Source of the DNA: Cryobacterium cheniae
GTDB lineage: Bacteria; Actinomycetota; Actinomycetes; Actinomycetales; Microbacteriaceae
Assembly (NCBI RefSeq): GCF_004403395.1
Contig: NZ_SOGN01000026.1
Coordinates: 62,001-126,000 of the forward strand
Length of the DNA: 64,000 bases
Reading direction: 5' to 3'
This document shows positions 15,357-63,334 of this stretch, in pieces; positions within the stretch are counted from its first letter, which is position 1; every line of letters starts with the position of its first letter. The position numbers and the translations under genes were made by a program. Under the pieces are notes generated by a model. The model had not been told where the DNA came from. It searched no databases and saw nothing but the letters and a program-made list of their open reading frames with translations.

Positions 15357-16337
15357 ATGAGCAACACCACACCCCCCGAGGGCAACCGCAACTACGACCA
15401 CGACCCGGAACCGGTCGACAACGCCGGCCACGCCGAGCACACGGATGCCCCCGACTACACCGGGTCAGGCTCACACTCCGCGCCGGCCGACTCCGGTGAC
15501 GCGACCAATGCCGCATCCGACGCACCGGCATCCGCTCACGGCGAGCCGGTCGGCGAACCCGTCTCTTACGACACCCCCGAGACCCATGCCCCCGCGCCGG
15601 TCACCCACGACGCCTCCCGTGAGCCCGCGACGGCCGCCTACGCGCCCGCCGCCTCCGTGAACAGCACGCCTGCAAACAGCACCGCCGAGACCCAGCGAAT
15701 CGACCCGGTCGACACCCGGGCCGACGCTCCCACCACGGCGACCCACACGCCGGCGGACACCACCGTGCAGCCCCCCATCTACATCCAGGCGCCGACCGCA
15801 CCGCGCTACAAGAGCAACCGCGGCCCCGGCGTCGTGATCGCGCTGCTCTCCACCGCCATCTTCGCGGTGCTCTACGCGATCGTCGCCTTCGTCCTGTCCG
15901 GCATCGGCAGCCTCTCGATCTCCGACACGGCCTCGAAGTTTACCGAGTTCATCGTGCTGCCGATCTTCTACGTGCCGGTCATCTTCTTCTTCGTCGCGTT
16001 CGCCCTCCTGGTGCTGCTCGTGAACCGCGGCGGCTGGTGGGCCTACGTGCTCTTCGGCTTCCTGGTGGCCGTCGTCGTCTACTTCTCCTACATCGGCGCG
16101 GCGCTCCTGAGCGTGCAGGCCTGGAACTTCACGCCCGACCAGGCGGCGCGCTTCATCAGCCAGCAGTGGCTGAACCCCGGCGCCATCGCCGCCGCGATCG
16201 TCGCCCGCGAGGTGCCGATCTGGGCCGGAGCGTGGATCGCCCGCAACGGCCGCTCGGTCACCGCCCGCAACGCCGCATCCAAGGCAGAGTACGACCGCGT
16301 GCTCGCCGCCGGACCGCAGGGCATCCGCACGAACTAG
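15357..16337 (+). CDS. membrane protein with disordered Ala/Thr/Pro N-terminus, unknown
   Basis: No named family is assigned. The 326 residues consist of a ~150-residue hydrophilic segment rich in Ala, Thr, Pro, Asp and His and likely disordered, followed by four hydrophobic segments (GVVIALLSTAIFAVLYAIVA, FTEFIVLPIFYVPVIFFFVA, WWAYVLFGFLVAVVVYFSYI and AIAAAIVAREVPIWAGAWIA). The short tail is basic. The ribosome site AAGGAG precedes the ATG. It follows the pilus operon after 93 bp but has no pilus-like feature. Such proteins are common next to envelope genes in Microbacteriaceae. Confidence 0.75.
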   Translation: MSNTTPPEGNRNYDHDPEPVDNAGHAEHTDAPDYTGSGSHSAPADSGDATNAASDAPASAHGEPVGEPVSYDTPETHAPAPVTHDASREPATAAYAPAASVNSTPANSTAETQRIDPVDTRADAPTTATHTPADTTVQPPIYIQAPTAPRYKSNRGPGVVIALLSTAIFAVLYAIVAFVLSGIGSLSISDTASKFTEFIVLPIFYVPVIFFFVAFALLVLLVNRGGWWAYVLFGFLVAVVVYFSYIGAALLSVQAWNFTPDQAARFISQQWLNPGAIAAAIVAREVPIWAGAWIARNGRSVTARNAASKAEYDRVLAAGPQGIRTN

Positions 16338-18779: not shown

Positions 18780-18793
18780 TCGCGTTCCGGAGT

Positions 18794-18857
18794 CCGGGCT
18801 CCCGGTGACCGAGCCTGTCGAGATCTGATTTCGACAAACTCGATCACCGGGGCCCGG
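18794..18857 (+). repeat. long intergenic hairpin built from the GTCGAG repeat
   Basis: The arms 18794-18821 and 18831-18857 pair along nearly their whole length, with three mismatches and one bulge. They include GAGCCTGTCGA and its inverted partner TCGACAAACTC. No T-run follows, so it is not a clear terminator. It may adjust the stoichiometry of rpsL-rpsG against fusA or protect mRNA ends. Confidence 0.65.
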
Positions 18858-18913
18858 AACCCGGATGCCCTGTATAGCCCCAAGATTCATAAGCAAACTT
18901 CCGGAGGACCCCT

Positions 18914-21171: not shown

Positions 21172-22365
21172 GTGGCCAAGGCCAAGTTCGAGCGGACCAA
21201 GCCGCACGTAAACATCGGAACGATCGGTCACGTTGACCACGGAAAGACCACGCTGACTGCAGCGATCTCCAAGGTCCTTGCCGACACGTACCCGTCGAAG
21301 ACGAACGTTCAGCGCGACTTCGCGTCGATCGACTCTGCTCCGGAAGAACGCCAGCGCGGTATCACGATCAACATCTCGCACGTTGAGTACGAGACCGAAA
21401 AGCGTCACTATGCGCACGTCGACGCACCGGGCCACGCTGACTACATCAAGAACATGATCACTGGTGCTGCTCAGATGGACGGCGCGATCCTCGTGGTTGC
21501 CGCTACTGACGGCCCGATGGCTCAGACCCGTGAGCACGTTCTGCTCGCGAAGCAGGTCGGCGTGCCGTCCCTGCTCGTCGCACTGAACAAGTCCGACATG
21601 GTTGACGACGAAGAGATCCTTGAGCTCGTTGAGCTCGAGGTTCGCGAACTCCTCTCCGCCCAGGGCTTCGACGGCGACAACGCTCCCGTCGTTCGCGTTT
21701 CCGCACTCAAGGCGCTTGAAGGCGACGAGAAGTGGGTCGCAAACATCCTTGAGCTCATGAAGGCTGTCGACGACTACTTCCCGGAGCCCGTCCGCGACAA
21801 GGACAAGCCCTTCCTGATGCCGATCGAGGACGTCTTCACGATCACCGGTCGTGGAACCGTCGTCACCGGCCGCGCCGAGCGTGGAACCCTCAAGATCAAC
21901 TCCGAGGTCGAGGTTGTCGGCATCCGCCCGACCATCAAGACCACGGTCACTGGTATCGAGATGTTCCACAAGCAGCTCGACGAGGCATGGGCCGGCGAGA
22001 ACTGTGGTCTTCTTCTTCGTGGCACCAAGCGCGAAGACGTCGAGCGCGGCCAGGTTGTCGTCAAGCCGGGTTCGGTCACGCCGCACACCGACTTCGAGGG
22101 CACCGCGTACATCCTGTCAAAGGATGAGGGTGGGCGTCACAACCCGTTCTACGCGAACTACCGCCCGCAGTTCTACTTCCGCACCACGGACGTCACCGGC
22201 GTCATCACGCTGCCTGAGGGCACCGAAATGGTCATGCCCGGCGACACCACCGACATGAACGTCGCGCTGATCCAGCCGATCGCCATGGAAGAGGGCCTCG
22301 GCTTCGCCATTCGTGAAGGTGGCCGCACCGTCGGCGCCGGAACGGTGACCAAGATCATCAAGTAG
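21172..22365 (+). CDS. tuf: elongation factor Tu
   Basis: EF-Tu has 397 residues. Its motifs are GHVDHGKTT (G1), [10 protein letters not shown] (G2), DAPGHADY (G3) and NKSDM (G4), with domains II and III complete to [10 protein letters not shown]. It delivers aminoacyl-tRNA to the A site. The GTG start follows AGGAGGACCCACA. The 143-bp gap from fusA may hold a separate promoter, as is common for tuf, but no convincing hexamers are visible. An intrinsic terminator follows. Confidence 0.98.
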
Positions 22366-22414
22366 TTCCCTTCGCCCGCCCAGTCACTCCGGTGATCGGG
22401 TTGGTCGAGATCAA

Positions 22415-22445
22415 GGGGCCGGTCCTTCGGGGCCGGCCCCTTTTT
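22415..22445 (+). terminator. str operon intrinsic terminator
   Basis: An 11-bp GC stem (22415-22425 with 22430-22440) closes on a TTCG tetraloop and is followed by TTTTT. It lies 50 bp after the tuf stop. The same 31-base sequence recurs exactly 400 bp downstream. Confidence 0.93.
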
Positions 22446-22571
22446 CGTGCCGGGGAGGCCCTCCGCGCCCGAGACCCCAACCCTCAGCGTCGCTCTCGAG
22501 CGCAGTTGATCACCAACCGCCCAGCAACTAGCCTCTTCACGAGCCCTAACCGCCCCAGATCGGAGCACCCC

Positions 22572-22802
22572 TTGAATTTCAACGACATCAGCCGCAAGGC
22601 GCAGGAGTTCCTCAAAACGGAAAAGGGCGAGAAGATCGCCGACAAGATCCTTGACGGTGGCGCAGCCGCAGCGAACAAGGTCACCGGCAACAAGCACGCC
22701 GACAAGGTCAAGGATGCCCGAGACGCGGCGGACAAGCACCTCGGCCGCGGCGACGGTCAGGCCGACCGCGACGCACGAGGCACCGGCCCCGACGCCAGGT
22801 AG
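22572..22802 (+). CDS. small MT0933/Rv0909-like antitoxin-family protein
   Basis: The 76-residue hydrophilic, Lys/Asp/Ala-rich helical protein contains ISRKAQEFLKTEKGEKIADK and TGNKHADKVKDARDAADKHL. These resemble the MT0933-like antitoxin family, whose founding member is the antitoxin in mycobacterial Rv0909-Rv0910. No ATG starts this frame; I chose TTG at 22572 because GGAG lies 6 bp upstream and the family motif follows at once. No START-domain toxin gene is adjacent, so in this genome it may have another role; many actinobacteria carry solitary copies. It is bounded by two identical terminators. Confidence 0.7.
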   Translation: MNFNDISRKAQEFLKTEKGEKIADKILDGGAAAANKVTGNKHADKVKDARDAADKHLGRGDGQADRDARGTGPDAR

Positions 22803-22845: not shown

Positions 22846-22910
22846 TCTTTTTTTACTCCCTGTGCCCGGGCTCCCTCCCCGCCGCCCCGGCTCCGGGAGG
22901 GTTGCGCCGC

Positions 22911-22974
22911 CGCGCGGGTCGTGCGCCGCTCCGCACAGGGCGTGCCACGCGCGGAGCGGCGCGGCACCCGCGCG
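22911..22974. repeat. GC-rich palindrome, left copy
   Basis: The arms 22911-22934 and 22951-22974 are 24 bp each and complementary except for a few bases, with a 16-bp loop. The right arm and part of the loop (22939-22974) recur as an identical 36-bp direct repeat at 24082-24117, beyond the AbiEi-like gene. The gap 22846-23075 otherwise holds only GC-rich sequence, with GGAGAGGAG about 55 bp before the next start. Confidence 0.85.
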
Positions 22975-23075
22975 TCGCCGGCGGTCCTGTTCTCCCCAAG
23001 GGGGTCGGTCGGAGAGGAGTGTGCAGATTTCCGGTGAGTCGGGGGTCCGGGGACAGAGCAATCCACAGTGGGCGG

Positions 23076-24053
23076 ATGCCTGACTCACCTGACGACGACT
23101 TCTCACCCCGCCTCCTCCTCGCGACCGATCTTCGGAGGGCCTTCGGCGCCGACCTTCGGCTGCGCCGCCAGGCCGAGAGGGGCGAACTGCACCGGCTCGC
23201 CCGCGGTCAATACCTGGATACCGTCCTGTGGACGGCGCTGAACCCGGATCAGCGGTATGCAGCCCGAGTGCGCGGCGCAGCTGACACCCGGCAGACGGAA
23301 CATGTGCTCTCCCACCAATCCGCGGCCGTGCTGTGGGGACTCCCCACAGTCGCCGGCTGGCCGTCCGAGGTTCACTTCCTCACCGAACGCACCCGCGGCG
23401 GACGCTCCACGCCGGGAATCCGCAAGCATGCACTGGGCCTCGACCCGCGGGATCTCGCCGTGGTGAACGGACTCCTGGTCACCGGCATCGAACGCACGGT
23501 CGTCGACCTCGCCGCGACTGCGGACCTGAAGTCCGCGGTCGCCATGGCCGACCGCGCCATTGCGGTGGATCGCAGCGGGCGCGTTCTGCCTCTGACCACC
23601 CGGCCCCGGCTGCTTGAAACCTGGGAGCGGATGCTTCCCTTCCGCGGGTCGGTGCGCGCGCGGGCCGTGATCGACTTCGCTTCGACCCTGTCCGGGTCCC
23701 CGAACGAGTCCGGAAGCCGCGTCAATGTGGCGCTGAACGGATTCCCGGAGCCGGTGCTGCAGAATCCGTTCGTCGTCGACGGCACGACCGTCTTCACCGA
23801 CTTCTACTGGATCGATGAAGATGCGGTGGGGGAGGCCGACGGCAAACGCAAGTATTTCGACCCCGTCATGCTGGACGGGCGCACCACAGCGGAGGTGGTC
23901 TATGACGAGAAACGCCGTGAGGATGGCCTGCGACGCCAGGTGCACGCGTTCACCCGGTGGGACTTCCCGGTCGGGATGAGCCAGAGCCGACTGCGCACCC
24001 GCCTGCTGCAGCTGGGACTGCCGATCGGGCGCCCGCGACTCCACGTCAGGTGA
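23076..24053 (+). CDS. AbiEi-like winged-helix protein with DUF559-like C-terminal domain
   Basis: The protein is 325 residues from the ATG at 23076. Residues ~10-130 resemble the AbiEi-type antitoxin/transcriptional-regulator N-domain (LRRQAERGELHRLARGQY, then LSHQSAAVLWGLP). The last third carries ESGSRVNVALNGFPEPVLQ, TDFYWIDED and EADGKRKYF, a pattern like the DUF559/Vsr PD-(D/E)XK fold. This architecture is frequent in actinobacteria, usually without an AbiEii toxin beside it, as here. Its role is unknown; DNA binding or defence is only inferred. Two related long palindromes flank the gene closely, suggesting movement as a unit. The upstream frame continues open but has no better start. 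Confidence 0.75.
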   Translation: MPDSPDDDFSPRLLLATDLRRAFGADLRLRRQAERGELHRLARGQYLDTVLWTALNPDQRYAARVRGAADTRQTEHVLSHQSAAVLWGLPTVAGWPSEVHFLTERTRGGRSTPGIRKHALGLDPRDLAVVNGLLVTGIERTVVDLAATADLKSAVAMADRAIAVDRSGRVLPLTTRPRLLETWERMLPFRGSVRARAVIDFASTLSGSPNESGSRVNVALNGFPEPVLQNPFVVDGTTVFTDFYWIDEDAVGEADGKRKYFDPVMLDGRTTAEVVYDEKRREDGLRRQVHAFTRWDFPVGMSQSRLRTRLLQLGLPIGRPRLHVR

Positions 24054-24054
24054 T

Positions 24055-24117
24055 GCGCGGGTGCTGCGCCGTTGCGCTGGTGGCGTGCCACGCGCGGAGC
24101 GGCGCGGCACCCGCGCG
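24055..24117. repeat. GC-rich palindrome, right copy
   Basis: Arms of about 23 bp (24055-24077 and 24094-24116) pair with three mismatches, two of which would be G-U pairs in RNA. The right half (24082-24117) is identical for 36 bp to 22939-22974. It starts two bases after the stop codon of the AbiEi-like gene. Confidence 0.85.
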
Positions 24118-24576: not shown

Positions 24577-24885
24577 ATGGCGGGACAGAAAATCCGCATT
24601 CGACTTAAGTCGTATGACCACGAGGTCATCGACATCTCGGCGCGCAAGATCGTCGACACAGTGACCCGCGCGGGTGCAACTGTCGTCGGCCCCGTGCCGC
24701 TTCCGACCGAGAAGAACGTGGTGTGTGTCATCCGTTCCCCTCACAAGTACAAGGACAGCCGGGAGCACTTTGAAATGCGCACCCACAAGCGTCTGATCGA
24801 CATCATTGACCCGACCCCGAAGGCCGTCGACTCGCTCATGCGTCTCGACCTGCCGGCCGACGTCAATATCGAGATCAAGCTCTAG
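24577..24885 (+). CDS. rpsJ: 30S ribosomal protein S10
   Basis: S10 has 102 residues and includes [21 protein letters not shown] and [15 protein letters not shown]. Besides its place in the 30S head, S10 (NusE) joins NusB in antitermination complexes. It is the first gene of the S10-spc cluster, eight bases before rplC. Confidence 0.98.
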
Positions 24886-51291: not shown

Positions 51292-52653
51292 ATGCCTCGA
51301 CTATTTGGCACGGACGGCGTCCGAGGTCTGGCCAACCGTGATCTCACGGCTGGACTGGCCCTGGACCTCGCCCAGGCCAGTGCGGCGGTCCTGACTCAGG
51401 GCCGCCGCGCGGAGTTGCGTCGCGCAGAGGGCCGTCGGCCCGTCGCGGTGCTCGCCCGGGATCCCCGAATCTCCGGTGAATTCATTTCGGCCGCGGTTGC
51501 GGCCGGCCTGGCGAGTTCCGGCGTGGACGTGCTCGACGCGGGCGTCATCCCGACGCCCGCCGCAGCGTTCCTGATCGCCGATATCGGCGCTGACTTCGGC
51601 GTGATGATTTCCGCCTCGCACAATCCCGCCCCCGACAACGGCATCAAGTTCTTCGCCTTCGGGGGAACCAAACTTCCCGACGACGTCGAGGATCGGATCG
51701 AAGAGCACCTGTCGTTCGGCAAGCTCACGCCGATCGGCGGCGACGTCGGTCGCATCAGCCGCTTCGCGGATGCCGAAGACCGTTATGTCGTGCACCTCCT
51801 CGGCACGCTGCCGCACCGCCTCGACGGCATCCACGTCGTGCTCGACTGCGCACACGGCGCCGCCGCCGGCGTCTCGCCGCAGGTCTTCACGGATGCCGGA
51901 GCCACGCTCACGGTCATCGGCGCCGACCCGGACGGCAACAACATCAACGACGGCGTGGGCTCCACCCACCTCGACAACCTGGCCCGAGCCGTGATCGCAG
52001 CCGGCGCCGACGTCGGCATCGCCCACGACGGCGACGCGGACCGGTGCCTGGCCGTCGACCGCGACGGCAACATCGTCGACGGCGACCAGATCATGGCGAT
52101 CCTCGCCGTCTCGATGGCCGAACGCGGCGTGCTGAAAGACCGCACCCTCGTGGCCACGGTGATGAGCAACCTCGGCTTGCGCAAAGCCATGGCGGCCCAC
52201 GACATCCGCATGATCGAGACCAAGGTCGGCGACCGCTACGTACTCGAAGCGCTCAACATCGACGGGCTGTCCCTCGGCGGCGAACAATCGGGCCATGTGA
52301 TCATGACCAAGTTCGCCACGACCGGTGACGGCATCCTGACCGGGCTGCACCTGGTCGCCGAGATGGCCCGCACCGGCAAGACCCTCGCCGAGCTCGCCTC
52401 GGTGATGACGGTCTTCCCGCAGATCCTGGTCAATGTGCGCGGCGTCAACCATCACGGGCTGAACTCGAACGAGATCATCGCGGAGGCCGTCCGGGCAGCC
52501 GAGGCCGAACTCGGTGACACCGGCCGGGTGCTGCTGCGCCCGTCGGGCACCGAGCCCATGGTGCGCGTCATGGTCGAAGCGGCCGACCAGGGCACCGCCG
52601 ACCGGCTCGCGAACCAGCTGGCCGACACCGTCCGCCTGCAGCTCGCTCTCTAG
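51292..52653 (+). CDS. glmM: phosphoglucosamine mutase
   Basis: GlmM (453 residues) converts glucosamine-6-phosphate to glucosamine-1-phosphate for UDP-GlcNAc synthesis. It opens [19 protein letters not shown]; the phosphoserine is residue 109 in [16 protein letters not shown]; the metal loop is [11 protein letters not shown]; the sugar and phosphate sites are [10 protein letters not shown] and [12 protein letters not shown]. It works with GlmS, encoded 1 kb downstream. Confidence 0.97.
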
Positions 52654-62860: not shown

Positions 62861-62886
62861 CGTGCAAACCTATCAACCCTCCGCAT

Positions 62887-62913
62887 CTGGCACTCACGTT
62901 GCGTGAGTGCCAG
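62887..62913. promoter_or_regulatory. CIRCE element (HrcA operator)
   Basis: CTGGCACTC and GAGTGCCAG are perfect 9-bp arms around a 9-bp spacer, the CIRCE layout, 75 bp before groES. HrcA repression of groES is well established in actinobacteria. It may also affect the divergent methyltransferase, whose start is 26 bp away. Confidence 0.93.
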
Positions 62914-62931
62914 ATGCGCCCTAAACTCGAC

Positions 62932-63303: not shown

Positions 63304-63334
63304 GAATCCCGGATGGCCAGGCCATCCGGGATTC
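63304..63334 (+). terminator. groES terminator-like hairpin
   Basis: A 13-bp perfect stem (63304-63316 with 63322-63334) with a 5-base loop lies 20 bp after the groES stop. It is followed by GTCGTT rather than a T-run, so it acts as a weak terminator or mRNA end. Confidence 0.65.

Follow-up and report, generated by a model that had tools for sequence, protein, structure and literature searches.

What is a gene for a protein with an AbiEi-type winged helix and a DUF559-like nuclease domain doing between the str and S10 operons of Cryobacterium cheniae, and why does a long palindrome stand on either side of it? A preliminary description of the window (the whole 64,000-nucleotide stretch of contig NZ_SOGN01000026.1 analyzed here) likened the arrangement to a REP/BIME or MITE-like cassette that could mobilize or recombine the enclosed gene. 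We read it as a probable REP-RAYT-like system in which an unrelated nuclease takes the place of the usual enzyme. Gene and palindromes would form one cassette of an actinobacterial REP-like family that is spread by its own AbiEi/DUF559-like nuclease, a reading to which we give a probability of roughly 0.6.

The gene, its product, and its two palindromes

The genomic position reported at the outset was correct, in that tuf and rpsJ enclose the gene (Table 1). Its ATG start was picked by conservation, and the open frame extends upstream to position 22902. By translation, the neighboring genes are tuf, a small ORF, and rpsJ, with no AbiEii nucleotidyltransferase adjoining; an AbiE operon is therefore ruled out. 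The small ORF (22392 to 22802, start uncertain) lies between tuf and the cassette, evolves fast, and recurs in many related genomes at 34 to 90% identity.

Table 1. Features of the tuf-rpsJ region, in window coordinates
Feature	Position	Strand	Details
tuf	21172-22365
Upstream cognate palindrome	22912-22973	.	62 bp; weaker symmetry out to 22905-22980
Identical 36-bp segment, upstream copy	22939-22974		direct orientation
Gene, AbiEi-type winged helix plus DUF559-like nuclease	23076-24053	+	325 aa
AbiEi-like region, residues 27-150	23154-23525	+	PADLOC, E 3.2e-16
Putative active-site residues	23706-23840	+	E211 23706-23708, D242 23799-23801, E253 23832-23834, D255 23838-23840
Downstream cognate palindrome	24055-24116	.	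62 bp
Left-arm direct repeat of downstream palindrome	24055-24082		GCGCGGGTG 24055-24063 and GCGCTGGTG 24074-24082, 19 bp apart
Identical 36-bp segment, downstream copy	24082-24117		direct orientation
rpsJ	24577-24885

The AbiEi/DUF559-like label also holds, at the N terminus through the PADLOC AbiEi model and at the C terminus through profile-profile alignment to proteins of the DUF559 branch. All 32 aligned members of the family matched the PADLOC model and 13 of the 32 matched Pfam AbiEi_4; Pfam and NCBIfam searches with the window protein itself gave no match. In hhalign, a DUF559-branch profile built from 23 of 30 DUF559 loci aligned over 245 columns covering both domains (probability, 99.3%; E = 9e-21). 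Residues E211, D242, E253, and D255 do not vary in any of the 32 aligned homologs and align with the E, D, and E-x-D of the DUF559 branch; they form a putative active site of the Vsr-like or PD-(D/E)XK type. The family shares with DUF559 (PF04480)/Vsr-like nucleases a homologous C terminus with aligned acidic positions, and the DUF559 branch is palindrome-framed as well, but the present family escapes the Pfam DUF559 model, which none of the 32 aligned members match at an E value of 1 or better. Across 10 ortholog pairs, dN/dS was 0.08 to 0.17, and the protein is therefore under purifying selection. Structure prediction from six sequences gave an unusable model (pLDDT, 36), and a solved relative is ruled out, the top PDB match (E = 0.31) being to an unrelated molecule.

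Both palindromes and their identical segment were found again where the preliminary description had placed them, and the palindromes lie far beyond chance. Symmetric pairs are intact at 24 of 31 positions upstream and 25 of 31 downstream, 63-bp copies of the two are 87% identical, and the downstream palindrome starts one base past the TGA stop codon (24051 to 24053). Their palindrome scores are 21 and 20, whereas order-2 Markov sequence (10 × 64 kb) reached at most 15. The 35-mer with up to three mismatches is absent from all 100 dinucleotide-shuffled versions of the window, and as single strands both palindromes fold better than each of the 200 shuffled sequences (z = -4.6 and -5.2). A known RNA family is ruled out as their identity, since the two Rfam matches were sub-threshold and neither overlaps the window palindromes. 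Further palindromes in the window, with scores of 15 to 18, lie at 18792-18860, 52000-52083, 62882-62918, and 63304-63334.

Framing of homologs and a common palindrome plan

Homologs occur in 56 of 57 Cryobacterium genomes, with 228 matches in total. We took essentially the best-scoring 69 of these matches and ran a de novo detector for palindromes 46 bp or longer up to 450 bp away on each side: 50 homologs had one upstream, 52 downstream, 39 on both sides, and 63 on at least one, compared with 6, 11, 1, and 16 of 214 control ORFs drawn from random stretches totaling 400 kb in the same genus. At the other 6 of the 69 homologs no palindrome was detected. The two flanks of a locus resemble each other (similarity of 0.68, compared with 0.23 between loci; 0 of 5,000 permutations, computed on the 39 loci framed on both sides). 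Among paralogs with about 40% identity to the window protein, framing is equally frequent (20 of 35 on both sides), but the palindromes are of quite different sequence.

At an E value of 1e-20, homologs were found in 163 of 249 Microbacteriaceae genomes (64 of 85 genera) and in 42 of 346 genomes sampled from the phylum (25 of 219 genera). Framing in these wider samples and in the DUF559 branch was counted with palindromes of at least 41 bp, and the control remains the Cryobacterium ORFs at 46 bp or more. Other Microbacteriaceae genera had palindromes on both sides at 12 of 25 loci, on at least one at 18, and none detected at 7, a count that leaves out five Cryobacterium loci. In the phylum sample, three or more of whose 28 loci come from Microbacteriaceae, the corresponding figures were 8, 21, and 7. 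DUF559-branch genes in relatives are framed less often (5 of 30 on both sides, 19 of 30 on at least one). Two short DUF559 matches (L266 and L270), which are probably true Vsr, had no palindromes. At the tuf-rpsJ site of genome G021, a solo palindrome beside a gene fragment (L207) is of the type that frames a DUF559-branch gene (L254) in the same genome.

Palindromes of unrelated sequence share one plan: a motif of about 9 bp, 10 bp, the motif again, a short center, and then the mirror image. Of 220 arms (one palindrome outside 52 to 90 bp was dropped), 137 carry an internal direct repeat with at least 7 of 9 matches, for which 24% of shuffled arms qualify; 104 of the 137 have an offset of exactly 19 bp, compared with 49 of 1,050 shuffled arms. 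The two motif pairs may be binding sites for the winged-helix domain. This plan bears on the simplest account of the locus, vertical inheritance of a conserved gene beside strong terminators whose flank similarity comes from composition. Many orthologs are indeed syntenic and palindromes come close behind stop codons, but random stretches hold 22 palindromes of at least 46 bp in 400 kb (some belonging to these very families), a single control ORF of the 214 is framed on both flanks, composition-matched shuffled palindromes reach a similarity of just 0.13 on average and 0.35 at most, and the 19-bp rule goes unexplained. That account is refuted as a full explanation and is barely credible.

Dispersed copies and their pairing with gene clades

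The dispersed repeat envisaged in the preliminary description exists: window-type palindromes stand at no fewer than 22 places in the window's genome, a 3.2-Mb draft (queries were the upstream palindrome and a 62-base consensus, and two contig-end pairs sharing one copy were merged). Because several copies sit at contig ends, the assembly breaks at palindromes. In a consensus built from 18 copies, 30 of 31 pairs are intact, which makes it an almost perfect palindrome; single copies keep 19 to 27 pairs. Among 18 solo copies, a count that leaves out those cut by contig ends (L022 and L025) and four additional places, compensatory change was seen in 7 cells compared with 8.2 expected, and paired cells numbered 430 compared with 435 after shuffling. 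These uncompensated mutations probably record independent decay from a perfect master and not hairpin selection at each site. Two copies (L011 and L027, both in G000) carry tandem expansions of part of the palindrome.

By the intergenic gap that they occupy, 32 of 42 typed palindromes could be classed with a crude ORF caller (5 lie inside called ORFs and 5 lack a called ORF on one side; 38 untyped palindromes were omitted, and a few gene-flank copies are included). Fifteen are in convergent, 14 in same-strand, and 3 in divergent gaps, where all 549 gaps divide into 143, 287, and 119; they lie a median of about 50 bp from a gene 3′ end. The scan covered 80 strong palindromes, 38 of which match no known gene flank. 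The placement of solo copies is REP-like, not operator-like.

This placement bears on an account in which nothing has moved, the palindromes being sites of an autoregulating AbiEi-like repressor together with terminator hairpins, and the dispersed copies its regulon or recruited terminators. AbiEi of Streptococcus binds an inverted repeat of similar scale within the promoter that drives it (11 bp, or 23-bp arms when extended; PMC3985639), and here too the gene is preceded by a palindrome, often at a distance of about 120 to 200 bp; the closeness to gene 3′ ends and the share of convergent gaps (15 of 32, compared with 143 of 549) would suit terminators. There is, however, a further copy on the downstream side of the gene, and divergent, promoter-bearing gaps hold few typed copies (3 of 32, compared with 119 of 549, by the same crude ORF calls). 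Mutations in the 18 solo copies leave base pairing unsupported by compensation, and the nuclease residues are invariant in all 32 homologs; we consider the operator account rather unlikely. Relative to AbiEi, the type IV AbiE antitoxin, the window protein shares a homologous N-terminal region, and AbiEi binds a long inverted repeat (PMC3985639), but here a nuclease domain is fused, tuf and rpsJ stand where an AbiEii toxin gene would be expected, and repeats occur on both sides and genome-wide.

Palindrome type follows gene clade. The type termed P3, which adjoins the gene at L105, occurs in 28 of 57 genomes, and per-genome counts are lower bounds, 16 candidates having been scored in each. Its gene clade (at least 59% identity to the L105 protein) is present in 18 genomes, all 18 with P3 palindromes, compared with 10 of the 39 genomes that lack the gene. 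Window-type palindromes occur in 44 of 57 genomes; their gene clade (at least 58% identity, fragments included) is present in 35, all 35 with palindromes, compared with 9 of 22 without the gene. Fisher tests that ignore kinship give P = 4e-8 for P3 (18 and 0 against 10 and 29) and P = 2e-7 for the window type (35 and 0 against 9 and 13). Palindrome-only genomes thus number 10 for P3 and 9 for the window type, and a fragment of the window-type gene persists in G015; G005 and G017, which have many P3 copies, look like recent gene losers. Since each gene clade has its own palindrome, the enclosed gene is likely to be the repeats' partner, not a passenger.

A passenger is what the gene would be if an ordinary transposase (IS or RAYT) moved the palindromes and two copies happened to enclose it. 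The anatomy fits such a MITE/REP composite, but a passenger would not explain why palindrome type tracks gene clade in many genomes and at many loci, and the genome has no PF01797 match; we hold this to be highly unlikely.

In G444, from the same phylum but outside the host's class, four further copies of its own palindrome were found in the 400 kb sampled. The types at L176 and L188, from two other genera (G144 and G134), were absent from 200 kb of each own genome, which speaks against a generally high copy number. G444 also holds a second dispersed palindrome family (GAGTCGAAGGATCCC..., L350-L364), with about ten copies in 400 kb.

Alleles, mobility, and a REP-like reading

The tuf-rpsJ site was examined in 50 of 53 genomes with a match, the upstream view spanning only about 1.5 kb in many. 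It carries the window clade in 16, a 38%-identical paralog in 3, and no gene in 31. The paralog cassettes (G009, G029, and G052) bring GTCGAGAGTG-type palindromes, and copies at the site are frameshifted, truncated, or remnant in G048, G027, G015, and G021. Among the 31 gene-less sites, G055 has a lone palindrome, which resembles those flanking the gene that this genome carries at another place (L068); shorter unrelated hairpins are present at two sites, and the remainder have none. At the P3 gene locus, the gene is gone from G005, where exactly one palindrome is left, and is kept in G041, G031, G038, and G044. The empty site with a single copy, which the preliminary description had proposed to look for in relatives, occurs both as the lone palindrome of G055 and as the P3 allele of G005. 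Over the rpsJ region, G009 and G029 are 97% and 95% identical to the window, yet from the gene upstream they have no nucleotide stretch with detected homology to the window; the replaced block therefore seems to exceed the cassette.

Solo sites vary as well. The site at L111:4686 holds the window type in G000 and G007, the GTCGAGAGTG type in G009, G030, and G029, and neither in G027 and G040. In a 60-kb block syntenic among five relatives with complete genomes, the other genomes have about as much sequence at most of the typed solo sites, which are therefore old insertions. A palindrome of the L314-L328 family is present in G044, G038, G041, and G031 and missing in G005, with both flanks intact, and this clean presence/absence site has no evident target-site duplication; the flanks of the empty sites are too diverged for target-site duplications to be defined. 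The L314-L328 family (GCGAAC(C/T)GTGA...AAGCCCC) was matched to no gene clade here. In G029, a pair of almost identical CTGAGGGGTCCCAAATCGACC palindromes separated by 1.2 kb (L275:14556-14614 and 15802-15860) possibly marks another cassette. Phage or plasmid cargo is ruled out: viral contigs yielded no relative among 52 candidate stretches, no phage record matched, and only 2 of 72,556 plasmid records did so, both from Tsukamurella and below 40% identity.

These alleles also bear on homing-type drive, in which the nuclease would cut palindromes of its own type that lack the gene, gene conversion would then copy the cassette in, and the palindromes themselves would spread otherwise. The G005 allele with exactly one palindrome, the mixture of window clade, paralog with other palindromes, and no gene at tuf-rpsJ (16, 3, and 31 of 50), and the broken gene copies there (G048, G027, G015, and G021) could all be produced in this way. 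Conversion would, however, be guided by only about 62 bp of homology, a larger block seems to have been replaced in G009 and G029, which lack detected window homology upstream of the gene, and G005 may more simply be a loss because four relatives retain the gene. We find homing distinctly unlikely.

The reading that we prefer, a cassette whose nuclease spreads its own palindromes, would work as follows. The protein would recognize the motif of about 9 bp, present four times in its own palindrome of about 62 bp (two per arm, 19 bp apart), and would cut or nick at that motif, its substrate perhaps being a hairpin that is extruded or single-stranded. When the break is repaired, palindromes would be copied or deleted, leaving solo copies genome-wide, mostly by gene 3′ ends. 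The cassette would be the autonomous form and solo palindromes the nonautonomous one, and recombination between the flanking palindromes would remove the gene and leave one palindrome. The framing, the gene-palindrome pairing, the 19-bp plan, the dispersal, the polymorphism in presence and type, the conserved nuclease residues, and purifying selection are observed directly; that the protein binds, cleaves, and spreads the palindromes we infer.

In layout and distribution the system is REP-RAYT-like, yet the defining enzyme differs. RAYT genes are always flanked by two REPs, according to PMC2817692, and here the gene lies between two palindromes of its own (39 of 69 homologs, compared with 1 of 214 controls). 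In both systems (for REP location, PMC3733652), the palindromes are dispersed, intergenic, and located by gene 3′ ends, and their type follows the gene. The enzyme, in contrast, combines a winged helix with a DUF559-like nuclease and has no Y1/HUH domain; the framed window gene has no PF01797 match. The REP-associated tyrosine transposase that the preliminary description had suggested looking for was not found, with no PF01797 match in the window's genome at an E value of 1, where 10 of 14 control genomes do match. RAYT is thereby ruled out, and with no Y1 transposase in the genome the system is not REP-RAYT in the strict sense. The palindromes differ too: they are about 60 to 76 bp with a 19-bp internal repeat, whereas REPs are 20- to 40-bp units. 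REP palindromes carry a GTAG or CGTC tag (PMC3733652), and on direct reading the window palindromes and the others listed have no such end tag. Copy numbers here are below the hundreds given for many REPs in PMC2817692. Solo palindromes resemble MITEs in being short, palindromic, nonautonomous, and dispersed, but no matching-end insertion sequence and no target-site duplication was established (PF01797 was searched, and empty-site flanks are diverged). What survives of the REP/BIME or MITE-like cassette first proposed is thus the existence of other copies and empty alleles; the Y1 transposase is missing, and the palindromes are not passive flanks.

The layout recurs across actinobacteria with one palindrome per branch of the gene family, and it looks like a small mobile-DNA system. 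The REPs covered by the cited papers are tied to Y1 transposases or apparently have no dedicated enzyme. In titles and abstract openings of the openly licensed literature, we found nothing linking DUF559 or AbiEi proteins to dispersed palindromes. We see about an even chance that selfish palindromic repeats with winged-helix/PD-(D/E)XK-type nucleases extend across the phylum as a second, unrelated route to REP-like elements, each nuclease lineage coevolving with its private four-motif palindrome phased at 19 bp and several pairs occurring per genome.

Throughout the phylum, the palindromes pair one-to-one with a large and poorly characterized nuclease family, whose members are labeled AbiEi antitoxin or DUF559 protein where they have any annotation. 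A PADLOC "AbiEi" match need not signify a toxin-antitoxin or defense system. If the reading is true, many actinobacterial proteins would gain a testable function and a class of intergenic palindromes would be explained. The family would also offer a natural series of protein-DNA specificities, with dozens of clades that each have their own motif in the same 19-bp frame.
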